Source: an uncultured Thiohalocapsa sp.
Lineage (GTDB): Bacteria; Pseudomonadota; Gammaproteobacteria; Chromatiales; Chromatiaceae
Assembly (NCBI RefSeq): GCF_913063425.1
Contig: NZ_CAJXYK010000003.1
Coordinates: 124,001-188,000, forward strand
Reading direction: 5' to 3'
Length of the DNA stretch: 64,000 nt
How positions within the stretch are numbered: position 1 is the first letter of the stretch; each line of letters starts with the position of its first letter. Shown here piece after piece: positions 21,228-53,604 of the stretch. The notes beneath the pieces were generated by a model, which worked only from the letters and a program-made list of their open reading frames with translations, had not been told where the DNA came from and did not search any database. A program made the translations under genes and the position numbers.

Positions 21228-21938
21228 TCACTTGCCGACCTCCACGATGTGCGAGATCACCGCCTCCGCCTGCGCCGGGTCCAGCTCACCGCAGCGCCCG
21301 TCGGCGGGCAGCTTGCGCTCGTCGCGGGCGAAATCGCCGATCTGCTTCTTGAGATACGCCGGATACTGGATGATCAGCGGCGGCACCTTGCCGGTCTCGT
21401 CACCGCCGGCGTCGGCGCCGTGGCAGCTCGCGCAGGCCTCCGCGTAGAGGTCGGCGCCGGCGGCCGCGAAGGCGGCCTTGTCGTCGAAGGCGGCGAGTGC
21501 CTCAGGCGTCGGCTCATAGGGCCAGAGACTCAAGCGCGGCGGCGTGAAGTCCGCAACATGGCCGGCCACCAGGTCGATGACCTCGGCATCGAAGCGGTGA
21601 TGCTTGAAGATGGGCACCATGGGCTTGTTGACGCGCGTCTGCGACTTGAAGGCGTGCAGCTGGCGGTCGACGTAGGGCTGCGGCAGCCCCGCGATGCGCG
21701 GATAGGTGCCGTTCGCGCCGCCCTCGCCGCGCTTGCCGTGGCAGTCCACGCAGTAGGCGTAGACCTGTGCCCCGGTGACCTCGGCGCTCTCGTCTGCGCC
21801 CGCAGCCAGGGGGATGGCGCTGGAGATCAACAGGGACAGTGCGGCGGGGAACGGCAGCCGCCAAAGCCGGCGGCGGGTGGCGGGCCGCAGGCGGCTGCGT
21901 CTTGCGGAGTGCGATGGCGCGCTTGAATATCGGTCCAT
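21228..21938 (-). CDS. Periplasmic diheme cytochrome c (c4-like)
   Basis: The 236-residue protein has a basic N-terminus, a signal peptide (LPFPAALSLLISSAIPLAAG, then ADES) and two haem c sites, CVDCH and CASCH, about 110 residues apart. This gives a two-domain c4-like layout. Methionines in NKPMVPIFK and the PPLIIQYPAYLKKQ segment are candidates for axial ligation and family conservation. I chose the ATG at 21938 because it gives a proper signal peptide; the frame runs further 5' through a tandem repeat with no coding character. It probably shuttles electrons in the periplasm to an oxidase or reaction centre. Confidence 0.85.
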   Translation of the reverse strand: MDRYSSAPSHSARRSRLRPATRRRLWRLPFPAALSLLISSAIPLAAGADESAEVTGAQVYAYCVDCHGKRGEGGANGTYPRIAGLPQPYVDRQLHAFKSQTRVNKPMVPIFKHHRFDAEVIDLVAGHVADFTPPRLSLWPYEPTPEALAAFDDKAAFAAAGADLYAEACASCHGADAGGDETGKVPPLIIQYPAYLKKQIGDFARDERKLPADGRCGELDPAQAEAVISHIVEVGK

Positions 21939-37858: not shown

Positions 37859-40279
37859 ATGCCCGCAGACCCCGTCCCCCACCGCCCGAGCCGCCGCACC
37901 CCGGCGCGCCCGCTCACCTTCGCCATCGCCGGCAACCCCAACTGCGGCAAATCGGCGCTATTCAATGCGCTGACGGGCATCCGCCAGACCACCGGCAACT
38001 GGCCCGGCGTCACGGTGGAGCGCCGCGAGGGGCGCTCGGAGCTGGACGGGCGTCCGGTGCGGGTGGTGGACCTGCCGGGCATCTACTCCCTGGATGCAAG
38101 CTCGCTGGACGAGCGGGTCACCCGCGACTATCTGCTCTCCCGCGAGGCGGACCTCATCGTCAACGTGCTGGACGCCGCCAACCTGGAGCGCAACCTGTAC
38201 CTGTCGGTGCAGCTGCTGGAAATGGGCGTGCCCGTGGTGGTGGCGCTCAACATGATGGACGTGGCCGCCAAGCGCGGCATCGAAATCGACACGGCGCAGC
38301 TCGCCGAGCGCCTGGGCTGCCCGGTGGTGCCCGTGGTGGCGGTGACCAAGCAGGGCATTACGGAGCTGAGCGCCCGGGCGCTGGCGGTGGTGGACGGGCA
38401 TGAGCGCGGCGGCTTCCCGTTGGCGCACGAGGAAGTCGTCGACCAGGCCGTGACCGAGCTGGCGGCAGGCTATGCGCGCCAGGGCGCCAAGCCCGCTGCC
38501 GGGCACAGTGCCGCCGGCGCTGACCCCAATGCGCGCTGGCTGGCGCTCAAGCTGCTGGAGGACGACGCCGCCGCGCGCGCGCTCGCGGACGGCCAGCTGT
38601 TGGCCCAGGCCGCGCACTGGCGCGCCGCCATCGCCGAGCGCACCGGCGAGGACGCGGACCTCTACATCGCCGATGCCCGCTTCGGGCACGCCCATGCGCT
38701 GTCCCAGGGTGCGGTGCGCCAGCGCGGTCGCGTGGGCCGCAACATGACGGACGCCATCGACCGCGTGGTGCTGAGCCGCCGCTGGGGCATCCCGCTGTTC
38801 CTGGCGGTGATGTACCTGATGTTCGTCTTCACCATCAACATCGGCGGCGCCTTCATCGACTTCTTCGACGGCGCCGCCCAGGCGTTGTTCGTGGACGGCT
38901 TCGGTGCCCTGCTGACGGGCCTGGGCGCGCCGGAGCTGCTGCGCATCGCCCTCGCCGAGGGCATCGGCGGCGGTCTCACCGTGGTGGCGACCTTCATCCC
39001 CATCATCGCGAGCCTGTACATCTTCCTGTCCGCGCTGGAGGACTCCGGCTACATGGCGCGCGCTGCCTTCGTCATGGACCGGGCCATGCGCTCCATCGGC
39101 CTGCCCGGCAAGGCCTTCGTGCCGCTCATCGTCGGCTTCGGCTGCAATGTGCCGGCGGTCATGGCCACCCGTACCCTGGAGAGCGAGCGCGAGCGCAAGC
39201 TCACCATCCTGATGAACCCCTTCATGTCCTGCGGCGCCCGGCTGCCGGTGTACGTGCTGTTCGCGGCGGCCTTCTTTCCGCAGCAGGGCCAGAACGTGGT
39301 CTTCGCGCTCTATCTCACCGGCATCGCCGTTGCCCTGCTGACGGGGCTGGTGATGAAGCGCACCCTGCTGTCGGGCACCAGCACCGGCTTCATGATGGAG
39401 CTGCCGCCTTACCACAGGCCCACGCTGCGCGGCGTGCTGCTGCGCACCTGGGACCGGGTGAAGCTGTTTCTGCGCGACGCGGGCAAGGTCATCGTCGTCA
39501 TGGTGCTGGCGCTGAGCCTGCTCGGTTCCATCGGCACCGACGGCAGCATCGGTGAGACCGACAGCGACGAGTCCGTGCTGGCCGCCGTCAGCCGCGCGGC
39601 CACGCCGGTGTTTGCGCCCATGGGCATTGCAGCGGACAACTGGCCCGCGGTGCTCGGCATCTTCTCCGGCGTACTGGCCAAGGAGGTCATTGTCGGCACC
39701 CTGGATGCCATGTACGGGCGCATTGCCGCAGACGACGCCGCCGCCCGCAGCGCGCGCAGCGAGGCGGCGGCACCGGCGCCGTTCGATCTCCCCGCCGCCC
39801 TCACCGCCGCCGCGGCCACCATCCCGGCGAATCTCGCGCAGCTGGGCCGCAGCCTGGCGGACCCGCTCGGGCTCGGCGTCGGCGACCTCAGCGACCGCGC
39901 CGGCGTGGGCGCTGAGCAGGGCGTGCAGGCCGGTACCTTCGGCGCCATGGAGGCCCGCTTCGACGGCCGCGCCGGCGCCTTCGCCTATCTGCTCTTCGTG
40001 CTGCTGTACTTCCCCTGCGTGGCCACGGTGGCCGCCATCGTGCGCGAGGCCGGTGCCGCCTGGGCCACCTTCGTTTCCGTCTGGACCACCGGCATCGCCT
40101 TCATCACCGCCACGGTGTTCTACCAGGCCGCGACCTTCTCCCGTGACCCGACCACGGCATCGCTGTGGCTCGTCGGCATGCTCGCGGTGCTGGTGGCGGT
40201 GTTCATCGGGCTTCGCATCTGGGCGCGGCGCGGTGGGGAGGCCGGGCGTGGGGCTGCGGCGGCGGAGGCGGCGGGGTGA
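37859..40279 (+). CDS. feoB: Ferrous iron transporter FeoB
   Basis: The 806-residue protein imports Fe(II) across the inner membrane. N-terminal GTPase: G1 GNPNCGKS (residues 25-32), G2 in QTTGNWPGVTVE, G3 DLPG and G4 NMMD. The C-terminal membrane part has the two Gate motifs: YMARAAFVMDRAMRSIGLPG with GCNVPAVMATRTLESERER, and later VLGIFSGVLAKEVIVGTLDA. An extra stretch at about residues 620-690 is Ala-rich. No feoC is seen downstream. The ATG at 37859 gives a Pro/Arg-rich lead. Confidence 0.95.
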   Translation: MPADPVPHRPSRRTPARPLTFAIAGNPNCGKSALFNALTGIRQTTGNWPGVTVERREGRSELDGRPVRVVDLPGIYSLDASSLDERVTRDYLLSREADLIVNVLDAANLERNLYLSVQLLEMGVPVVVALNMMDVAAKRGIEIDTAQLAERLGCPVVPVVAVTKQGITELSARALAVVDGHERGGFPLAHEEVVDQAVTELAAGYARQGAKPAAGHSAAGADPNARWLALKLLEDDAAARALADGQLLAQAAHWRAAIAERTGEDADLYIADARFGHAHALSQGAVRQRGRVGRNMTDAIDRVVLSRRWGIPLFLAVMYLMFVFTINIGGAFIDFFDGAAQALFVDGFGALLTGLGAPELLRIALAEGIGGGLTVVATFIPIIASLYIFLSALEDSGYMARAAFVMDRAMRSIGLPGKAFVPLIVGFGCNVPAVMATRTLESERERKLTILMNPFMSCGARLPVYVLFAAAFFPQQGQNVVFALYLTGIAVALLTGLVMKRTLLSGTSTGFMMELPPYHRPTLRGVLLRTWDRVKLFLRDAGKVIVVMVLALSLLGSIGTDGSIGETDSDESVLAAVSRAATPVFAPMGIAADNWPAVLGIFSGVLAKEVIVGTLDAMYGRIAADDAAARSARSEAAAPAPFDLPAALTAAAATIPANLAQLGRSLADPLGLGVGDLSDRAGVGAEQGVQAGTFGAMEARFDGRAGAFAYLLFVLLYFPCVATVAAIVREAGAAWATFVSVWTTGIAFITATVFYQAATFSRDPTTASLWLVGMLAVLVAVFIGLRIWARRGGEAGRGAAAAEAAG

Positions 40280-40671: not shown

Positions 40672-41019
40672 TCACTGAACGATGCCGTCCTGGCGAATCG
40701 CGGCGAGCAGCGGCGAATCCCCGTCGGTTGCTGTATCAAGCGGAGGCCCGGCGAACACCCACGGCTGCACCAGCACCCCGGTGTCGAGGAAGACCGCGTA
40801 GGCGTCGTCCGCAAGGTCCATCTGCTCGGCGACTGGATGGTCGACGTCGTCCAGGAACACCGCCACATCGGCATCGCTGTCGGGACGGTAGTCGCCACGG
40901 GCCCTGGACCCGAACAGGATCAATCCCACCAGGCGGCTGCCGTAGCGGTCCTGAAGTCTGGCGCGGAACGCCGAGATCGCGGAGGCGGTGATGCTGTCGG
41001 GTGGGTCAAAATCTGCCAT
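40672..41019 (-). CDS. MNT-type nucleotidyltransferase (antitoxin-like), second copy
   Basis: The 115-residue protein has the nucleotidyltransferase site LILFGSRARGDYRPDSDADV (GSx10DxD), then a third-acid region AYAVFLDTGV. It is the first gene of an MNT/HEPN pair whose HEPN half is reduced to a fragment just downstream. It looks intact, and it differs clearly from the copy at 33895, so the two loci were acquired separately. Confidence 0.8.
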   Translation of the reverse strand: MADFDPPDSITASAISAFRARLQDRYGSRLVGLILFGSRARGDYRPDSDADVAVFLDDVDHPVAEQMDLADDAYAVFLDTGVLVQPWVFAGPPLDTATDGDSPLLAAIRQDGIVQ

Positions 41020-44379: not shown

Positions 44380-45377
44380 CAAGTCCGGCGACGGGCCCGG
44401 CCGCGTCGGATCGCCCGTGGTCCCGCGGCGCGGGCGGCCAAGGACAGCAGCAGCACCGGCCCAGTGCGCGCAACGCCGCAGCCGGCGACATCACCTCACC
44501 CGCCCGCGCCGTGGGCTGGATGCCTGCGAGCGCAGCCCCGTGTGCGCCCGCTGCTCGCCTTGAGCGGCGTGAACGCCATCGGCGATCGATAATCCTCCTC
44601 GCCCCTCGCCCCTCGCCCCTCGCCCCATAGATTCAGGGAGGCGGTGATTACACCGCTCGTCGGATGGATAAAATGTACTAATGAAGACAAACGGTATATT
44701 CGCAAACAGTGGAGCCATTGGGCATGTTATGGTTTTTGCGCATACATATGGCTTTTTTCCGTTAGCCCATTCTTGTGCTGACCTAGACCGGTCGCTGTTC
44801 GCCCAAGCCGAAGCATTCAGCATCCAACAGTGCATTAGTAGATGCCCATTTAATGGGAACGCCGAATAGGCGGAATGGATTGTCACGATAGGAAAAAATG
44901 CAGGGGCATCGCTTGACTCCCGCGGTGCTGTCTATATCCTCACGCCCTACGCACTTGGACAAATACCGACAATCACCGGCGTCAATGCATGGCTGGTCTG
45001 CTCGCAGCCTTAACGCTGAAGGCCCAAGCACCCTGCACGCTTAATCGACGCCATATCGACAAAACCTGTTCAGGTCGGCCCCTGTTCAAGTCGTCCAAGG
45101 AGCAGCCGTCGCCGAAGGCTTAGTTCGGCGCCCTCAGGCTGGGTAATGCCGGCTGGATAGTGTCGGGAGGCACTGTCGCTGCCCAGGCCTGAAGCGGTGA
45201 TGCGTCGCGCAGCCCAGCGCCCAGCGCCCGGACCACGACAGCAGAATGGATCGCAGCGCAGCGAGGCCGGTGCACGCCGGCCGCGGTGAGCCCGGCCGCG
45301 CCCCGGCCGCGGCTCATCAGCAAAAGGGCAGCGAGTAACGTCTGCCCAGAAGCCAAACCAAAGGTGGAGTGAAGCCA
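44380..45377. other. Gene-free stretch with AT-richer segment
   Basis: Nearly 1 kb without a convincing gene. It includes a (tcgcccc)4 heptamer array at 44599-44627 and, from about 44640 to 45060, a segment clearly richer in A/T than anything nearby. A 62-residue frame (44681-44869, starting MKTNGIFANSGAIGHVMVFA) and overlapping minus-strand frames are open there but show no motif or good ribosome site. Likely foreign DNA or decayed sequence. Confidence 0.45.
44599..44627. repeat. Heptanucleotide tandem repeat (tcgcccc)4
   Basis: Four head-to-tail copies of a 7-bp unit, just before the AT-richer segment. Confidence 0.75.
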
Positions 45378-46391
45378 ATGTCCGAAGTGAATCAGAGCAA
45401 GCGCGACTTCCTCGCGTTCAGCGGCAAGGCCGGCATGGCCACGCTGGTCGCACAGGCCGCCGGCATCAATCTCGGTATCGTGGATGTCGTCAGGGCCGAG
45501 GCCGGCGGCAAGGTGGACCCCTTCCGCTTCGCCATCATCAGCGACGCGCACCTGTACAGCATGGATGACCACAAGTTCGACCAGCAGCTCATCGACGCGG
45601 TGACCAAGGTCAACAACATGGAGCCCATGCCCGACTTCGTGCTGTTCGGTGGCGACGTGGCCCAGAACGGTACCGAAGACCAGCTGGTGAAGGGCAAGGA
45701 GATCCTCTCCAAGCTCAAGATGCCCATGAAGATCATCCCGGGCGAGCACGACTGGTACCTCGACATGGGCGAGGCCTGGCGCGGCCTGTTCGGTGACGAG
45801 ACCTGGTCCTTCGACCACAAGGGCGTGCACTTCATCGGCCTGAACTCGATCCTCGTAGAGGACTTCTGGACCGGTCCCGGCCTCACGCCGAAGGAGCGGA
45901 TGACCGTCATGGAGATGCTTGAGAGCCCGATCCCCGGCCCCTGGGGCGTGCATGAGCAGCAGCTCGAGTGGCTCGCCAAGGACGTCAAGGACCTGGCCCC
46001 GAGCACGCCCATCGTCATCTTCACCCACTCGCCGCTGTGGGACTACTACCCGCGCTGGAACTTCCAGACCTCCGATGCCCCGGAAATCCGCGAGATTCTC
46101 TCAAAGTTCGACAACGTCATGTCCTACCACGGGCACGTCCACCAGACGCTCTACAACAAGATCGGCAACATGTCGTCGGTGGCGGCCATGAGCACGTCCT
46201 GGCCCTGGCCCTACCCGCCGGTGGAGCTGGCCTACCCCGAGACCCGCATGAACCGCGCCGACCCGTCCATCGCCACCGACGGCCAGGGCGTGCAGATCAT
46301 CGACCTGAGCGGCGAATTCGAAGGCCTCGTGCAGTACAAGCCGTTCGAGGACTCCTTGACGCCGTTCATGCAGGACGGCTTCAAGGTCTGA
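45378..46391 (+). CDS. Calcineurin-like metallophosphoesterase
   Basis: The 337-residue protein has the five dimetal motifs: DAH (ISDAHL, D56 and H58), GGDVAQNG, GEHDW (a GEHD variant of GNHD), THSP and YHGHVHQ. The N-terminus (KRDFLAFSGKAGMATLVAQA) looks like a twin-arginine start with KR instead of RR, so export is possible. The ATG at 45378 has ggag about 9 bp upstream. Substrate unknown. It is not SoxB: SoxB belongs to the longer 5'-nucleotidase group, though both are dimetal esterase-like proteins. It opens the plus-strand run leading to the cytochrome and Sox genes. Confidence 0.82.
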   Translation: MSEVNQSKRDFLAFSGKAGMATLVAQAAGINLGIVDVVRAEAGGKVDPFRFAIISDAHLYSMDDHKFDQQLIDAVTKVNNMEPMPDFVLFGGDVAQNGTEDQLVKGKEILSKLKMPMKIIPGEHDWYLDMGEAWRGLFGDETWSFDHKGVHFIGLNSILVEDFWTGPGLTPKERMTVMEMLESPIPGPWGVHEQQLEWLAKDVKDLAPSTPIVIFTHSPLWDYYPRWNFQTSDAPEIREILSKFDNVMSYHGHVHQTLYNKIGNMSSVAAMSTSWPWPYPPVELAYPETRMNRADPSIATDGQGVQIIDLSGEFEGLVQYKPFEDSLTPFMQDGFKV

Positions 46392-46556: not shown

Positions 46557-47087
46557 ATGAAAACCCGCACCGCCATCCGTCGCGCCCTCGGCGTCGGCGG
46601 CATCGCCCTCGCCACCGTCGTTGCCGGCACCGTTTTTGCTCGCCCGCCTTTCACAGACGAGGAGCTCAAGCAGCAGATGGACAGCCTCTACGAGGCCATC
46701 CAGGTGGGCTACGACCTCTGGCACGGCAGCGAGCCCAGCATGACCAGCAACGGCCTCGCCTGTGCCAATTGTCATCCCGACACCGCCGCCTCGAACCCGC
46801 AGACCTTCCCGAAGTACATGACCATGTACGGCAAGGTGGTGCCCTGGCAGGAGATGGTGAACTGGTGCATCGAGAACCCGCAGCTCGGCGAGCGCCTGGA
46901 CGCGCAGTCTGACGAGATGACCGCCATCAAGGCGTACGCCATGTACCTGCACCGCGGCCTGCCCATCGAGCCCGGGCTGGCCTCTGAGCAGACGGCGGCC
47001 GTGCCGGTGGCCTTCGGCACCGGCTTCAAGCGCGAGCCCACGGGGCTCGGCGTCGACACCCGCGAGTACGTGCCGGAGCGGCGCTGA
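46557..47087 (+). CDS. Exported monoheme c-type cytochrome (SoxA/TsdA-like fold)
   Basis: The 176-residue protein has a signal peptide (basic KTRTAIRRALG, hydrophobic GGIALATVVAGTVFA) and one haem site, CANCH, in LACANCHPDTAAS. The region after it (PKYMTMYGKVVPWQEMVNWC, IENPQLGER, then EMTAIKAYAMYLHRGLPIEP) resembles SoxA/TsdA-type haem domains, with an NWCIEN helix bearing a free Cys. It has a strong ribosome site (ggaggag). Its place 154-684 bp before the DUF1566, SoxY and SoxZ genes suggests it receives electrons from sulfur-compound oxidation. It is not a full SoxA. Confidence 0.75.
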   Translation: MKTRTAIRRALGVGGIALATVVAGTVFARPPFTDEELKQQMDSLYEAIQVGYDLWHGSEPSMTSNGLACANCHPDTAASNPQTFPKYMTMYGKVVPWQEMVNWCIENPQLGERLDAQSDEMTAIKAYAMYLHRGLPIEPGLASEQTAAVPVAFGTGFKREPTGLGVDTREYVPERR

Positions 47088-47170: not shown

Positions 47171-47240
47171 GGGACCAAAGCCCCGATCATTGCAAGGTCC
47201 ACCGAGCAAGCACCGGCGGGATGCCGCCCGGATAACTGCC

Positions 47241-47762
47241 ATGCGTATTCCCTTGACGATATTGCTGTTGTGCGTGCTGGCCACGGCGCAGGCAGAGCAG
47301 CGTTGCGACACCAGCCAGCATCCGCTCTCGGCGCCCACCGAGCGCTTCACCGACAACGGCGACGGCACCGTCACCGACACGGCCTCAGGGCTCATGTGGA
47401 TGCGCTGCGCGCTGGGTCAGGAGTGGACCGGCGACACCTGCGCCGGCGATGCCGAGACCTACGCCTGGCCATCGACGCAGCCGGCCGCCGATGCCGTCAA
47501 CGCCAGCGGCGAGCAGTTCTTCAGCGATTGGCGTGTGCCTGGGCTGCGGGATCTCGCCCTGATCGTCGAGCGCGAGTGCGTGAACCCGCGCATCAACCTG
47601 ACTGTGTTCCCGAACACGGCGGCCGACTTCTTCTGGACCAGCAGCGCGCGCGAGGATGATCCGGACGATCGGGTCTACGCGCTGAGCTTCGGACCCGAAG
47701 GCGTGGAGCCCCACGCCAGGAGCCTGGCCCACCACCTGCGCCTGGTGCGCACCGCGCAGTGA
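47241..47762 (+). CDS. Exported DUF1566 (Lcl-type) domain protein
   Basis: The 173-residue protein has a clear signal peptide (MRIPLTILLLCVLATAQA, then EQ) and a DUF1566 domain: FTDNGDGTVTDTASGLMWMR near the N-terminus, SDWRVPGLRDLALIVE in the middle, then DFFWTSSAREDDP and LRLVR at the end. Function is unknown; the fold is C-type-lectin-like. Its stop overlaps the GTG of the SoxY-like gene (GTGA), so it belongs to the sox transcript. Confidence 0.8.
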   Translation: MRIPLTILLLCVLATAQAEQRCDTSQHPLSAPTERFTDNGDGTVTDTASGLMWMRCALGQEWTGDTCAGDAETYAWPSTQPAADAVNASGEQFFSDWRVPGLRDLALIVERECVNPRINLTVFPNTAADFFWTSSAREDDPDDRVYALSFGPEGVEPHARSLAHHLRLVRTAQ

Positions 47763-48244
47763 GCCCGGCAGTGACCACCGCAAACAGCAGCGTCCCGCGG
47801 CCGGACCGGCGCCGTGCGCTGGCGGGCACAGCGGCGTGGCTCGCCTGTGCAGGCACGGGCATGCACGGCGTCGCCGCCGACATCCTGCCGGCGCGGGGGG
47901 CCGTCGATGCGGCGCTCGTGGCCCTGGGTGCAGACACGAAGCTGGGCGCGGTGGAGGCGCCCGAGCGGGTTCGGCTCACCCTGCCGGAGCGCATCGAGGA
48001 CGGCGCCATGGTGCCCGTGTCAGTGCGGAGCACCCTGTCCGGGGTGCGCGATGTCCTGGTGCTCGCGGACATGAACCCGGCCCCCATTGCCGCCCAATTC
48101 CGCCTTGGTCCGGGGCTGGCGGCGCGCATCTCGGTGCGCATCAAGCTCGCCGGCAGCGGGCGCGTCTACGCTGCGGTACGTACCGCAGACGGGCTTTACT
48201 GGACCGCCGCCGACGCCGAGGTCACCGTCGGCGGTTGCAGCTGA
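47759..48244 (+). CDS. soxY: SoxY-like sulfur-carrier protein
   Basis: The 161-residue protein has a Tat-type start (DRRRALAGTAAWLACAGTG). The SoxY domain (VRLTLPERIEDGAMVPVSVR, then FRLGPGLAARISVRIKLAGS) ends in VTVGGCS. The terminal Cys of SoxY carries thiosulfate-derived sulfur; here the swinging arm ends GGCS rather than the usual GGCGG, two residues short. The GTG at 47759 overlaps the previous stop; a GTG at 47771 is an alternative. soxZ follows after 29 bp. Confidence 0.85.
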   Translation: MSPAVTTANSSVPRPDRRRALAGTAAWLACAGTGMHGVAADILPARGAVDAALVALGADTKLGAVEAPERVRLTLPERIEDGAMVPVSVRSTLSGVRDVLVLADMNPAPIAAQFRLGPGLAARISVRIKLAGSGRVYAAVRTADGLYWTAADAEVTVGGCS

Positions 48245-48273: not shown

Positions 48274-48585
48274 ATGACGGAGCGTATCCGCATCCGCAGC
48301 AGACGCCGGGAAGGCGGCGTGGACGTGATGGTGCTGATGCTGCATCCCATGGAGTCGGGGCTGCGCACGGACGCGGACGGCCGCCGCATACCGGCCCATT
48401 ACATCACCGACGCGACCGTGACCGTGAATGAGCAAACGGTGCTGGAGGCCCAGCTCGGCATCGCCGTGGCCCGTGATCCGTTGTTGCAGTTCCGCCTGGA
48501 GGCGGCGCCCGCAGGGGCGCAGGTGCACGTGCGCTGGCGCGACAACCGCGGCGAGCGGCAGATGGCCACGGCAACCCTGGCCTGA
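48274..48585 (+). CDS. soxZ: SoxZ, partner of SoxY
   Basis: The 103-residue protein without signal peptide starts MTERIRIRSRRREGGVDVMV, then LMLHPMESGLRTDADGR, HYITDATVTVNEQTVLEAQL and VRWRDNRGERQ. SoxYZ is normally exported as a complex on the SoxY Tat signal, and carries sulfane intermediates of thiosulfate oxidation in the periplasm. No soxA, soxB or soxX is in the window. Confidence 0.9.
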   Translation: MTERIRIRSRRREGGVDVMVLMLHPMESGLRTDADGRRIPAHYITDATVTVNEQTVLEAQLGIAVARDPLLQFRLEAAPAGAQVHVRWRDNRGERQMATATLA

Positions 48586-48757: not shown

Positions 48758-49084
48758 ATGAACCCCATTGATCGCCGCAAATTCCTGTTCCAAGTCGCCG
48801 CCGGGGCCTCCGCACTGGCCATGGCGCGTTTCGTGGGCGCCGAAGAGGCCAAGCCGGATCTCGACCCCAACGATGCCTATGCCAAGGCCATGGGCTTCGT
48901 CACCGACACCGCCAACGCCGACGCCGAGAAGTTCCCCAAGCACAGCATGGATCAGTCTTGTGCCAAGTGTCAGCTGTTCCAGGCGCCCGAGGGGGCCGAG
49001 AAAGGGCCCTGCTCCTTCTTCGGCGGGCGCCAGGTGCCGGCCACCGGCTGGTGTCGGAACTTCAAGCCGAAGAACGCCGCCTAG
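48758..49084 (+). CDS. hip: High-potential iron-sulfur protein (HiPIP)
   Basis: The 108-residue precursor has a Tat signal (PIDRRKFLFQVAAGASALAM) and a mature domain with the four [4Fe-4S] cysteines: CAKC in DQSCAKCQLFQA, C in GPCSFFGGRQV and C in GWCRNFKP. HiPIPs are periplasmic one-electron carriers of purple sulfur bacteria, commonly the direct donor to the reaction-centre tetraheme cytochrome. It has a gaggag ribosome site. The next gene downstream encodes just such a tetraheme domain. Confidence 0.93.
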   Translation: MNPIDRRKFLFQVAAGASALAMARFVGAEEAKPDLDPNDAYAKAMGFVTDTANADAEKFPKHSMDQSCAKCQLFQAPEGAEKGPCSFFGGRQVPATGWCRNFKPKNAA

Positions 49085-49395: not shown

Positions 49396-52300
49396 ATGCG
49401 GCGTCCTGCAGGTTCGGCTGCCCGTCCAGCAGCCACCACCGGATTTCCCAGCTCCATCGCCGGCACTGCGGCGCGTCGCCACAGCGCGCCCGGCAGCCGG
49501 CATATGGCCCAGCGCCTGCTCACCGCCGGCGCCGCCTGCACCCTGGTGCTGCTCACCAGCTGCAAGCAGCCCACCGACAGCGTGCAATCGGGCTATCGCG
49601 GCAATTCCATGATCCAGGTCTACAACCCGGCGAACGTCGCTGCGCTTGAGGGCATCAACGCGATCCCGGAGGCCGAGCCGAGCGATCCCTACGACCCCAG
49701 CTTTCCCATGGCGAGCGAGCTGCACGAGAACGTCCAGGTCCTCACCGACCTGAACGCCCTGGAGCTGGCGCGACTCATGAACGCCATGACCACCTGGATC
49801 GCGCCGGAGGAGGGCTGCGCCTACTGCCACAACACGGAGAACCTCGCCGACGACAGCAAATACACCAAGGTCGTCTCCCGGCAGATGATCAAGATGACGC
49901 GGGACATCAACGCCAACTGGCAGTCCCACGTCAAACAGACCGGCGTCACCTGCTGGACCTGCCACCGCGGCCAGCCGGTCCCATCCGATATCTGGTTCGA
50001 GCAGGAAGACCCGCCACGCCCATCGGCGGGCATCAGCGGCTGGAAGGCCGGTCAGAACCTGGCGGGCGTCGCCAACAACGGCTTCTCGTCCCTGCCCTCT
50101 GACCCGCTGACGCCTTTCCTGTACCAGGACAACGACATCCGCATTCAGGGCACCGAGGTGCTCCCGCACGGGAACCGCCGCTCCATCAAGCAGGCGGAGT
50201 ACACCTATGCCCTGATGATGTACATGTCAGAGTCGCTCGGCGTGAACTGCACCTACTGCCATCAGACCCGCGCCATGGGCCTGTGGGAGGAGAGCACGCC
50301 GCAGCGCGTCACCGCCTGGCATGGCATCCGCATGGTGCGCAACCTCAACAACGAGCACCTCAGCCCGCTGCTCCCGCTGTATCCGGACACTCGGCTCGGC
50401 CCCACGGGTGACGCCCCGAAGGCCGCCTGCGACACCTGCCACAAGGGCACCTACAAGCCGCTCTACGGCGAGACCATGTTGGGAGACTATCCGTCCCTGA
50501 GCGGCATCCTGCCCGGGCGGCTGTCGCCCGACCCCACACAGGGCGGTGTCGTTCAGGTGGCCTATGCGCCCGAGGGCGCGGCGCCTGCCAGCCTGGAGCA
50601 ACGCCAGCAGTTCGTCGAGCAGCTGGCCGCGGCCGAAGCCGAGGCCGAGGCCGAAGCGGCGGCTGAAGCCGAAGCCGCGGCCGCCGAGCAGGTCGCGGTC
50701 GCCGAGGCGCCTGACGGCGATGCGCCTGCGGGCGACGCCGCGGGCGAGCCCAGGACCGCTGCGGCCGAGAAGACCGCCGCCGCGGTCGACGCAGACGACA
50801 GTGCCGCGCCGGCGGCGCCGAGCGAGGGCACCGCCTCCATGCTCGCCGTGCTCGGTGAGACCGACATGTTCGCGACGACCTTTGCCGGCACCACGGCGCC
50901 CACCGGGGAGGCCCCCGCCGATGCCGAGCTGCTGCCGAAATGGCAGGGTCTGTGGCGCTGGTGGCAGCCGCCGGCGGGTATGACGCCCGAGGAGGCGTTG
51001 GCGATGCGCGGTCCCGTCTCCCCCATCGACGCCACGCTGGGGGTCGATGGAGCCCTCGCATCGGTGTTCGCCGGCGCCGCGCGGCCGAGTGGCGATGCCG
51101 CATCGGCTGCGCCCAAGTGGCAGGGCTGGCGTCGCTGGCTGCGCTCGCAGGGGGCGGATGCCGACGCCGCCGCGGACGGCATGACGATCGCCGAGATCGA
51201 GCAGCGGCTCGTGGAGCTCACCGACACGCTCGAAGCTGTCCGCGCCGAGCTCCAAGCCGGCCGGACGGCGTCGGTGACCGTCGCCACCGCCGCGTCCACG
51301 GCCACGGCAGCGGCCCCCGCGCAATCCGCGCCTGCGCAGACCGAGACGGCGGCGCCCGCCGCGGCGCCCGAGTCCGCGGCAGCGCCTGATGACGAGCTCG
51401 CCACCGCAGCGACACCAGCAGACGACGGTGCTGAGGTCGCAGCCACCGAGACCGACGACGAGCCCCCAACAGACGCCGCGGCAGCGCCTGAGGCGACGGA
51501 CGACGGCATGGATGCAGAGACCGCGGCCGTGGCGCAGGACAGCGGCGCCGCCGAGGCCCATGCCGAGGCCCTGGCCGCCGAGGTCGACGCACTGCGGGCG
51601 GCGCTCGAGGCCGAGCGCGCCGAGGCCGCGGACGCGGGGGCGACGGCAGAAGCCCTGGACGACGCCGAAGCGCGCATCGTCGCCATGCAGGCCCGTCTCG
51701 ATCAGGAGACCACCGCGCTCGGGCAGCAGCTCGACGTGGTGCGCCAGCAGCGTGACGCGGTGGCCCAGGCCCTGCGGGACGAGCACGCCGACGCCATGGA
51801 CGCTGCGGCGGACCGCCTGACCGCCATGCAGGCCCGCATCGATCAGCAGCGCACCGCGCTCAACCAACAGCTGGACGTGGTGCGCGAGCAGCGTGACGAG
51901 GCCGAAGCCGAGGCCGCAGCGCGTGTGGCGGCGGCCGAGCATGCCGACGCCATTGCCGCCGCCGAGCGCCAGATCAGCGCCATCGAGGCCCGGCTCGACC
52001 AGCAGACGCATGCGCTGAGCCAGCAGCTGGACGTGGTCCGCGAACAGCGCGACGAGGCCGCGGACGCCATCCAGGCCCTGGTGCCGGCGGACGAGCACTA
52101 CGACGCCCTCGACGCCGCCGAGCGCATGATCCGGGCGCTGAACGCCCGCCTCGACCAGCAGGCCCATGCCCTCAAGCAGCAGCTGGCGGTGGTGCGCGAG
52201 CAGCGCGACACAGCCGAGGAAGCGGTCGCCGAGCGTGTGCCGCGGGACGAGCACTTCGATGCCCTGGACGCGGCCGAGCGCCAGCTCACCGCCATGGGTG

Positions 52301-53604
52301 CACGGCTCGACCAGCAGACCGAGGCCCTGCAACAGCAGCTGGAGGTGGTGCGCACCCAGCGCGACGCGGCCGCCGAGGCGGCGCTGGCGCAGGACGCGGC
52401 CGGCGAGCAGCCCGTCGCCGCCATCCCGAAGGACGAGTACTACGACGCGCTCGACGCCGCCGAGGAGCAGTTCATCGCCATGGGCGCCCGCCTGCGCCAG
52501 CAGACCCAGGCCCTGCATCAGCAGCTGGAGGTGGTCCGCGCCCAGCGCGATACCGCCGAGACGGCGCTTGCCGCACGCATCCCCGCGGATGCCTACTACG
52601 ACGCCCTGGATGCCGCCGAGCGCGACTTTACCGCCATGGGCGCGCGCCTTGCCCAGCAGACCCAGGCGCTGCACCAGCAGCTGGAGGTGGTGCGCGGCCA
52701 GCGTGATGCCGCGAAGGAGAGGCTCGCCGCCCGTGTTCCGGCGGACGAGCACTACGACGCCATCGATGCCCTGGAAGGACGCGTCGCCGCGATCCAGGCG
52801 CGCCTGGACCAGAACCGGCATGCGCTGGAGCAGCAGCTCGACGTGGTGCGGTCCCAGCGCGACGGCATGGCGGCGGCGGCCGAAGCGCGCCTCGCCGCCC
52901 TAGAGCGCGAGCACGCCGAGGCCCTGGAGGCACTTAAGACCCGCATCGCCGCCGGCGACGCCCGTCAGGAGCAGGAGCGCGAGGCCCTGCGCCAACAGCT
53001 GGAGGTGGTGCGCCGCCAGCGCGACGCGGCCCAGGCAAGAGCGGACGAGGAGATCGCGCGGCTGAACGCGCAGCTTGCGGAGACCGAGGCGCAGCTCGGC
53101 GCGGCCCGTGGCGAGGTGGCGGCCACCGAAGACGCCCTGGCTCAGGCCCGTGACAGCGCGGCACAGGCGCAGGCCCTGAACGAGACCGCTGCGGCACTCG
53201 GCGGCGAGGTGACGGAGGACGGCATCGTCGTCAACCTCGGCGGCGACCGGCTGCGGTTTGCGAGCGGCAGCGCGACGCTGCCTGAGGGGGACCTGCCGGC
53301 GCTCGACCGCGCCGCCGAGCTGCTCGCCGAGCGCCCGGAGCTGACGGTGCGCGTGGAGGGCCACACCGACAGCGTCGGCAGCCGTGACCTGAACCAGTCA
53401 CTGTCGCAGCAGCGCGCAGAGGCGGTGATGGCCGCCCTGGTGGAGCGCGGCGTGGACCCGGCGCGCCTCACCGCCGCGGGCGTTGGGCCTGACCGGCCCA
53501 TCGCCAGCAATGCCACGGCGGAAGGCCGCAGCCGCAACCGCCGCGTGGAACTCTACGTCACCGCCCGCGAGCAGGTGGCAACCGGCGCCGCCGGGGGGGA
53601 CTGA
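49396..53604 (+). CDS. PufC-family tetraheme cytochrome fused to coiled coil and OmpA domain
   Basis: The 1402-residue protein combines four parts. (1) N-terminus with a lipobox (LLTSC, Cys56), so probably a lipoprotein. (2) Residues about 75-375: reaction-centre cytochrome c (PufC) domain with four haem sites at CAYCH 141-145, CWTCH 186-190, CTYCH 285-289 and CDTCH 345-349, and Met-rich helices preceding them. (3) Residues about 375-750: Ala/Glu/Pro-rich linker with two Trp-rich motifs (PKWQGLWRWW, PKWQGWRRWL). (4) Residues about 755-1250: coiled coil of about nine repeats with QQLxVVRxQRD, often preceded by DEHYDALDAAER. The end (about 1268-1395) is an OmpA-like peptidoglycan-binding domain (EGHTDSVGS with D1325, NRRVEL with R1382-R1383). 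Usual PufC proteins are about 320-400 residues. A ggagg site supports the ATG at 49396; ATG 49504 is an alternative. HiPIP is the gene before it. Confidence 0.85.
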   Translation: MRRPAGSAARPAATTGFPSSIAGTAARRHSAPGSRHMAQRLLTAGAACTLVLLTSCKQPTDSVQSGYRGNSMIQVYNPANVAALEGINAIPEAEPSDPYDPSFPMASELHENVQVLTDLNALELARLMNAMTTWIAPEEGCAYCHNTENLADDSKYTKVVSRQMIKMTRDINANWQSHVKQTGVTCWTCHRGQPVPSDIWFEQEDPPRPSAGISGWKAGQNLAGVANNGFSSLPSDPLTPFLYQDNDIRIQGTEVLPHGNRRSIKQAEYTYALMMYMSESLGVNCTYCHQTRAMGLWEESTPQRVTAWHGIRMVRNLNNEHLSPLLPLYPDTRLGPTGDAPKAACDTCHKGTYKPLYGETMLGDYPSLSGILPGRLSPDPTQGGVVQVAYAPEGAAPASLEQRQQFVEQLAAAEAEAEAEAAAEAEAAAAEQVAVAEAPDGDAPAGDAAGEPRTAAAEKTAAAVDADDSAAPAAPSEGTASMLAVLGETDMFATTFAGTTAPTGEAPADAELLPKWQGLWRWWQPPAGMTPEEALAMRGPVSPIDATLGVDGALASVFAGAARPSGDAASAAPKWQGWRRWLRSQGADADAAADGMTIAEIEQRLVELTDTLEAVRAELQAGRTASVTVATAASTATAAAPAQSAPAQTETAAPAAAPESAAAPDDELATAATPADDGAEVAATETDDEPPTDAAAAPEATDDGMDAETAAVAQDSGAAEAHAEALAAEVDALRAALEAERAEAADAGATAEALDDAEARIVAMQARLDQETTALGQQLDVVRQQRDAVAQALRDEHADAMDAAADRLTAMQARIDQQRTALNQQLDVVREQRDEAEAEAAARVAAAEHADAIAAAERQISAIEARLDQQTHALSQQLDVVREQRDEAADAIQALVPADEHYDALDAAERMIRALNARLDQQAHALKQQLAVVREQRDTAEEAVAERVPRDEHFDALDAAERQLTAMGARLDQQTEALQQQLEVVRTQRDAAAEAALAQDAAGEQPVAAIPKDEYYDALDAAEEQFIAMGARLRQQTQALHQQLEVVRAQRDTAETALAARIPADAYYDALDAAERDFTAMGARLAQQTQALHQQLEVVRGQRDAAKERLAARVPADEHYDAIDALEGRVAAIQARLDQNRHALEQQLDVVRSQRDGMAAAAEARLAALEREHAEALEALKTRIAAGDARQEQEREALRQQLEVVRRQRDAAQARADEEIARLNAQLAETEAQLGAARGEVAATEDALAQARDSAAQAQALNETAAALGGEVTEDGIVVNLGGDRLRFASGSATLPEGDLPALDRAAELLAERPELTVRVEGHTDSVGSRDLNQSLSQQRAEAVMAALVERGVDPARLTAAGVGPDRPIASNATAEGRSRNRRVELYVTAREQVATGAAGGD

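Follow-up and report, generated by a model that had tools for sequence, protein, structure and literature searches.

The window analysed here, a stretch of 64,000 nucleotides from an uncultured Thiohalocapsa sp., carries on its plus strand, at positions 49396-53604, a frame of 1402 codons without a stop. Its product, PufC2-OmpA, is a lipoprotein in which a tetrahaem cytochrome head is followed by a linker, a series of repeats and an OmpA domain, "PufC2" being a name coined here for the clade to which the head belongs. The original prediction, made from the nucleotides, had described a 1402-residue frame with a lipobox, four CxxCH sites, an Ala-rich linker, about nine repeats and an OmpA domain endowed with its Asp and Arg residues, and all of these features are borne out by Pfam, NCBIfam and motif matches. 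It had further proposed that the protein is tethered both to a membrane, by its lipid, and to the cell wall, a view that the layout of lipobox and OmpA domain supports at the level of sequence. Two features that it did not foresee, a distinct PufC2 clade and a cluster of genes coding for a high-potential iron-sulfur protein (HiPIP) and for Sox-like proteins, are central to what follows.

Organization of the protein

The lipobox, recognized as a pattern (LTSC, then Lys), places the lipidated residue at Cys56 (49561-49563). The head, residues 59-368 (49570-50499), matches the CytoC_RC family PF02276 over its full length, with 438.8 bits for a cut-off of 22.4, and the PufC equivalog NF040706 with 440.5 bits for a cut-off of 150; the PDB describes the 25 sequences that match it as C subunits of reaction centres or as related cytochromes. 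Its four CxxCH motifs start at residues 141, 186, 285 and 345, with none elsewhere in the protein, and these motifs, together with M128, M164, H178 and M274, candidate axial ligands by analogy with Blastochloris viridis, are invariant in 34 of 34 PufC2 heads and in 52 of 52 comparison heads.

Downstream of the head comes an Ala/Pro/Glu-rich linker, residues 371-739 (50506-51612), which evolves faster, and then the repeat region, residues 740-1230 (51613-53085), the borders of both having been drawn by eye. There are nine repeats of about 52 residues each, built on the core ARLDQxxxALxQQLxVVRxQRD; the distance from one repeat to the next is exactly 52 residues in five of eight cases, while in orthologues it is mostly 47 in Thiocapsa and mostly 51-54 in Thiohalocapsa and Halochromatium. 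The hydrophobic periodicity of the region peaks at 3.46 (0.071, to be compared with a maximum of 0.059 in 500 shuffles), the value for a two-stranded coiled coil being set at 3.5 in this test. An AlphaFold2 (AF2) model of residues 697-1402, of low confidence (mean pLDDT 65, pTM 0.31), displays an all-helical spacer with an OmpA-like end, in which two long helices, of 186 and 153 residues, are separated by four of 48-50 residues. Of the coiled-coil spacer of the original prediction, the nine repeats stand and the helical nature is predicted at low confidence; since the helices of the model are broken, neither a single straight coiled-coil rod nor its reach is demonstrated.

The OmpA domain, residues 1287-1382 (53254-53541), reaches 78.3 bits with PF00691, for a cut-off of 27.2. 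D1325 and R1340, presumably the pair expected to bind the diaminopimelate of peptidoglycan, are invariant in the ten aligned rows (the window and nine orthologues). YiaD (2k1s) is the best solved relative, and Omp38, Pal and MotB were matched as well. The domain therefore probably binds peptidoglycan.

A single gene, conserved in three genera

It is worth emphasizing that the opposite strand of this GC-rich stretch also holds an open frame, of 864 residues, so that openness alone is weak evidence for a gene. We rejected this reverse frame, as domain matches, orthologues and coding signal are all found on the plus frame. The third-position GC of the latter is 0.85-0.91 in the head, linker, repeats and OmpA domain, and the ratio of nonsynonymous to synonymous substitution rates (dN/dS) across the same parts is 0.15-0.32 against Thiohalocapsa halophila and 0.24-0.56 against Thiohalocapsa ML1. 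The corresponding values in the first 55 codons are 0.76 for third-position GC and 0.76-0.80 for dN/dS, and because these codons evolve fast, the ATG at 49504 (M37) is a possible alternative to that at 49396, 5' of which a GGAGG is seen by eye. Positions 49396-53604 are thereby confirmed as one real gene of 1402 residues. A scan for promoters and terminators, of which no further use was made, returned sigma-70-like sites far upstream, at 44647 and 44913, and two terminator-like sites, fewer than in shuffled sequences. A search of plasmids yielded no record spanning 80% of the query; the rows listed match it only in part, either in the head or at the OmpA end.

The occurrence of PF02276 was surveyed in 194 genomes drawn from a larger group for the family, and in 210 genomes for the order, each search finding it in 76 genomes. 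Fifteen of these 76 Chromatiaceae genomes hold a second kind of PufC match, in 16 copies, and in 13 of the 16, as read in the fetched loci, head and OmpA domain are encoded in a single frame; two of the remaining copies run off the ends of their contigs (L034, L041), and the third is a protein of 417 residues without OmpA (L042). The genera concerned are Thiohalocapsa (T. halophila DSM 6210 and strain ML1 among the named carriers), Thiocapsa (T. roseopersicina DSM 217, T. marina 5811 and KS1) and Halochromatium, represented by one bin. The linker of the Thiocapsa sp. KS1 copy (L045 9023-11458) includes, immediately ahead of the repeats, a stretch of undetermined residues. In Thiohalocapsa ML1 a second, separate OmpA-domain match is located just 3' of PufC2, on the opposite strand (L040 near 13183 (-); L058 near 13766 (-)).

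The original prediction would have fallen if the frame were an assembly join of two genes, or if the fusion were the usual form of PufC. The latter is not the case. As for the former, we rejected a join because copies from three genera keep head and OmpA in frame. Nothing was found here in favour of an artefact of assembly or annotation that would have fused two genes, a concern that PMC12650329 raised for its own Puf-OmpA fusions, and the presence of the isolates T. halophila DSM 6210, T. marina 5811 and T. roseopersicina DSM 217 among the one-frame copies, as well as a coding signal that runs from head to OmpA domain, makes its probability negligible.

A paralogue of the reaction-centre cytochrome

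The original prediction asked whether the genome has a separate pufC. It does: an ordinary pufLMC set is present on contig C93, PufC2 being on C3, away from pufLM. The window gene as the sole PufC of its genome is thus rejected, and the gene is a paralogue. In the same way, each of the 15 Chromatiaceae genomes has one match to pufL, one to pufM, and an ordinary PufC besides PufC2. In one of them (G143), the cluster described below separates PufC2 from a puf operon that has its own pufC and lies some 6.7 kb upstream.

In a tree of 92 PufC heads, 14 rows from Chromatiaceae and 25 from Betaproteobacteria make up one PufC2 clade (support 100/98), apart from the puf-operon PufC of Chromatiaceae and of others. 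The tree includes 35 of 38 puf-operon loci, the others misfitting the required haem spacing, and leaves out L112, L119 and L131; L123/L124 sit on a long branch whose placement is poor, and the group of OmpA-bearing PufC2 counts two rows cut before that domain (L055, L057). The betaproteobacterial members are short (365-436 residues in the 20 loci described below) and untailed. When heads are compared at a threshold of 90%, the PufC2 and puf-operon sets share 81 positions, conserved and with the same residue in both, and a single one switches type; 25 more, which puf-operon PufC conserves, are relaxed in PufC2. Most PufC2 retain the N-terminal VQxGxRG segment.

The HiPIP and Sox-like cluster

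Upstream of PufC2-OmpA, and on the same strand, lies a cluster that begins with a Metallophos (calcineurin-like) phosphoesterase of 340 residues (45369-46391; PF00149, 54.1 bits), with a Tat-like signal of the KR kind seen by eye. It is followed by a monohaem SoxA/TsdA-like cytochrome c of 176 residues (46557-47087; PF21342, 41.2 bits; one CxxCH), matched by phmmer to the SoxA structures 2c1d (E 1.8e-7) and 1h31 (E 1e-5), by an Lcl_C-domain protein (47277-47762, with a start perhaps at 47190; PF07603, 87.7 bits), by a SoxY-like carrier with a C-terminal GGC(S) arm (47759-48244; PF13501, 87.6 bits), by SoxZ (48274-48585; PF08770, 97.2 bits; TIGR04490, 99.6 bits for a cut-off of 76) and by a HiPIP of 108 residues (48758-49084; PF01355, 69.7 bits, run on 48764-49084), again with a Tat-type signal seen by eye. 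The genome has a second HiPIP on contig C58. Counting the window, the cysteines of these proteins are conserved throughout: Cys104 of the SoxA-like cytochrome in 32 of 32 loci, the tail Cys of SoxY in 23 of 23, the four cluster Cys of HiPIP in 36 of 36 and the four Cys of Lcl_C in 32 of 32.

HiPIP adjoins PufC2 in 15 of the 16 Chromatiaceae loci, and the phosphoesterase, SoxA-like and Lcl genes are present in 14, with SoxYZ in 12; among the misses, L034 is a 3.2-kb contig and L043 is devoid of all cluster genes. Beyond these named members, no further gene conserved across genera was found around PufC2. Of the 194 Chromatiaceae genomes, the 15 with PufC2, and no others, have the phosphoesterase at 83-100% identity, and among 397 other Pseudomonadota genomes drawn, two have a match (E up to 1e-60), both at 43%. 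In Betaproteobacteria, the cluster accompanies a short PufC2 in 20 loci, none of which contains pufLM; pufLM is found elsewhere in 18 of the 20 genomes, and in all 18 another PufC stands beside it, in pieces in two cases, as read from the coordinates. This search retained 80 of 147 relatives, so that the betaproteobacterial counts are lower bounds. The cluster is also carried by a metagenome bin titled Klebsiella pneumoniae (L092), a title that looks wrong, its PufC2 grouping with the betaproteobacterial rows.

Nine loci with a distant phosphoesterase (41-44% identity) were fetched: in seven a SoxA-like match lies beside it, and in L144 and L148 the contig ends at that place. According to Pfam matches in selected frames, such pairs stand beside a cbb3-like oxidase in L142 (5846-10682) and L145 (5233-10871), and beside a MauG/MbnH-type dihaem protein in L143 (4806-7661), L146 and L150 (5232-7891). 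With partners so varied, the pair seems to serve different cytochromes, as would an electron-donating unit plugged into different cytochrome chains; we know of no name for such a unit.

Further upstream in the window, two frames were noticed by eye, one resembling a FeoB-like iron transporter (37859-40279), the other small, nucleotidyltransferase-like and of opposite strand (40672-41019); neither is shown to belong to the cluster.

Recurrent fusions outside the clade

That the fusion might be confined to PufC2 was considered and rejected, as five fused PufC are found elsewhere, four of them adjoining pufLM. Three of these four belong to betaproteobacterial bins (L099 7636-9618, L101 9755-11293 and L116 2047-4056, by Pfam) and one to a Myxococcota bin (L105 4847-6418, by tblastn and Pfam); the fifth is from a Sphingomonas bin (L131 3-1508, by Pfam), on a contig that begins at the gene. 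Since the pattern for the OmpA motif missed L105, which was recovered by tblastn and Pfam, five is a minimum. In two of the fusion genomes (G629, G630) PF02276 has no match elsewhere; there is a second match in G628 and G631, and a weak partial one in G627. The betaproteobacterial and Myxococcota fused rows are placed outside PufC2 and apart from one another (L131 is not in the tree), from which we infer several independent origins of the fusion. In the puf-operon fusions, the cytochrome bearing the wall anchor would be that of the reaction centre itself.

A donor-side relay fastened to the wall?

We propose, with confidence and doubt evenly shared, that PufC2-OmpA is an inner-membrane, wall-tethered relay on the donor side of photosynthesis, with its own HiPIP and its own Sox-like source of electrons. 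In purple sulfur bacteria the lipidated tetrahaem head would lie at the periplasmic face of the inner membrane, while the linker, a helical spacer of variable repeat number and the OmpA domain would hold it on peptidoglycan. A Sox-like oxidation in the periplasm, performed by the monohaem SoxA-like cytochrome and the metallophosphoesterase, often with the SoxYZ carrier, would deliver electrons to the cluster's HiPIP; the latter would exchange them with PufC2, from which they would proceed to the photo-oxidized reaction centre, directly or via its own PufC. There is a precedent for the HiPIP step in Rubrivivax gelatinosus, where HiPIP donates to the tetrahaem PufC subunit (PMC10991045). The diversity of the cytochromes that accompany distant phosphoesterase/SoxA-like pairs also counts in favour of this scheme. 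The scheme builds on observed features, namely the domains, the intact haem motifs and candidate axial residues, the conserved cluster, the distinct clade and the presence of pufLM in the same genomes; the membrane location, the binding to the wall, the partnership with HiPIP, the sulfur compound as substrate and the direction of electron flow are inferred. Of the two roles imagined in the original prediction, the positioning of electron donors at the photosynthetic membrane is thus favoured, and conduction between outer and inner membranes has no support, as CxxCH motifs are confined to the head and betaproteobacterial relatives have N-termini of the inner-membrane type.

Where the lipid is inserted deserves some discussion. 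A lipobox precedes the head in all 16 Chromatiaceae copies, by pattern, and the residue that follows the lipidated Cys is Asp in seven of them, Glu in five and Lys in four, the window having Lys. Asp at this +2 position retains lipoproteins in the inner membrane of E. coli. The seven Asp are all found in Thiocapsa, the OmpA copy L033 of this genus having Glu. With such a mixture the E. coli sorting rule does not settle the location. The N-termini of betaproteobacterial PufC2 were readable in 20 of the 25 clade rows, the other five not matching the search motif: 13 display a hydrophobic stretch without a lipobox and seven a lipobox, and the hydrophobic anchor retained in these relatives argues for the inner membrane.

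Several observations weigh against the relay. The Lys or Glu present at +2 in nine of the 16 copies would point to the outer membrane under the sorting rule of E. coli. The SoxA-like cytochrome stays under the NCBIfam cut-off for SoxA (39.1 for 110), as does the SoxY-like protein for true SoxY (86.7 for 125); the only relatives of the phosphoesterase in the PDB are the phosphohydrolases 2zo9 and 2dxl, not SoxB, and an ordinary soxB is present elsewhere in the genome, on contig C73. SoxYZ is absent from four of the 16 Chromatiaceae loci and unseen in seven of the 20 betaproteobacterial ones (one of them cut), so that the sulfur substrate is not certain. Two of the 20 betaproteobacterial cluster genomes have neither a PF00124 match nor a second PufC. 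Finally, a Thiocapsa bin (G192) has a short PufC2 in its cluster and an OmpA-tailed copy elsewhere (L043 9472-12438), from which it follows that the tail is modular, and dispensable for the cluster. Beside the latter copy are genes that, on inspection by eye, look like those for cytochrome c maturation.

These difficulties leave room for other scenarios. PufC2 might be an alternative reaction-centre subunit, replacing PufC in some centres and thereby tying photosystems to the wall via the OmpA tail. In its favour are the 81 identical head positions, with only one that switches type, and the VQxGxRG segment, kept in most. The OmpA-tailed PufC encoded in puf operons (L099, L101, L105, L116), which is the sole PF02276 match found in G629 and G630, speaks for it too, and PMC12650329 mentions PufM-OmpA fusions as well; against this, the fetched PufC2 loci lack pufLM (G143 excepted, where the puf operon has its own pufC), all 15 genomes keep pufLM with an ordinary PufC, and the 25 positions that the puf-operon proteins conserve are relaxed in PufC2, and we consider this scenario unlikely, while taking it seriously. 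Still less probable is an outer-membrane lipoprotein that would take up extracellular electrons or carry them through the periplasm. A lipid combined with an OmpA domain does resemble YiaD-type and Pal lipoproteins, the +2 residues just discussed go in the same direction, and HiPIP takes part in photoferrotrophic and iron-oxidizing chains (PMC10715153); yet the head alone carries haem motifs, the neighbourhood of PufC2 offers no additional conserved genes across genera, and the lipobox is missing from the 13 betaproteobacterial relatives with a hydrophobic N-terminus.

Equally improbable, in our opinion, is a cluster devoted to maturation, metal handling or stress, with PufC2 as an accessory redox protein unlinked to light. 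It finds some substance in the distant pairs, whose neighbours are dihaem proteins of the MauG/MbnH kind or else a cbb3-like oxidase with a SCO1/SenC gene, in the stray OmpA copy of G192 beside apparent maturation genes, and in the two betaproteobacterial genomes devoid of PF00124. Against it, pufLM is present in all 15 Chromatiaceae genomes and in 18 of the 20 from Betaproteobacteria, the completeness of the two exceptions not being stated.

The arrangement of reaction centres and of their donors with respect to intracytoplasmic membrane, periplasm and wall is, to our knowledge, poorly understood. If the donor-side relay is correct, photosynthesis and the cell wall would be physically linked by a tetrahaem cytochrome that is anchored to the wall and has a HiPIP of its own, and part of the photosynthetic electron supply of purple sulfur bacteria may be fixed there. 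This can be tested in T. roseopersicina DSM 217, T. marina 5811, T. halophila DSM 6210 and, very likely, Thiocapsa bogorovii BBS. The cluster points to an electron-donating pathway common to purple sulfur bacteria and phototrophic Betaproteobacteria, of which we found no description. A more general and rather doubtful extension is that several lineages independently fused PufC, or a paralogue, to a peptidoglycan-binding domain, so as to fasten photosystems or donors to the wall; it is just as doubtful, as a part of this extension, that in Thiohalocapsa and Thiocapsa this fastening is coupled with a Sox-like oxidation driven by light and linked to HiPIP. Should this be true, it would constitute an unrecognized way to organize the photosynthetic membrane.

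Comparison with known systems

The claim of the original prediction that no protein with this layout had been described has to be softened. PMC12650329 (2025), which deals with hot-spring and UniProt sets of PufL/PufM, mentions rare PufC-OmpA and PufM-OmpA fusions, where bad gene models were not excluded, the OmpA domain of PufC being N-terminal according to its text and C-terminal according to a legend. What these fusions have in common with the present protein is the joining of PufC and an OmpA-like domain. The passages that concern them describe no repeat spacer, PufC2 clade or HiPIP cluster, and names in Thiocapsa, Thiohalocapsa, Myxococc- or Burkholder- do not appear in the main text. Our searches of open-licence papers brought up no description of spacer, clade or cluster, and no other report of the fusion, which goes unmentioned in the relevant passages of PMC10715153 and PMC11762602. 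Table 4 of PMC10892978 lists LT988_21295 of Thiocapsa bogorovii BBS as a second "photosynthetic reaction center cytochrome c subunit" with "no KO assigned". This is very likely the PufC2-OmpA of that strain, judging from locus tags (SoxY and SoxZ at 21280 and 21285); it appears there as a table row only, "OmpA" being nowhere in the main text. PMC8767323 reports pufC and two HiPIPs in Thiocapsa sp. LSW, and PMC6920907 treats the distribution of PufC, with no second clade in the passages that do so.

With the Sox system (SoxA, SoxYZ, SoxB), the cluster shares a SoxYZ-type carrier with its tail Cys, a SoxA-like domain and a Metallophos hydrolase. It differs by the monohaem state of its SoxA-like protein, by its HiPIP and PufC2 neighbours, and by the lack of a recognized SoxX or SoxB in the cluster, so that the SoxXA, SoxYZ and SoxB set is not assembled there (SoxX and SoxA were not searched elsewhere in the genome). 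The wall anchors YiaD, Pal and MotB have an OmpA domain in common with PufC2-OmpA; they are not known to contain haem, and their spacers are short or different. The closest kinship is with the PufC of type II reaction centres, of which PufC2-OmpA has the full head, the four CxxCH motifs, the candidate axial residues, the lipobox and the equivalog match. We can therefore understand it as a variant of PufC, not as a categorically new system, set apart by its separate clade, its location outside a puf operon, its HiPIP and Sox-like cluster, and about 1000 extra residues of repeats and OmpA domain.

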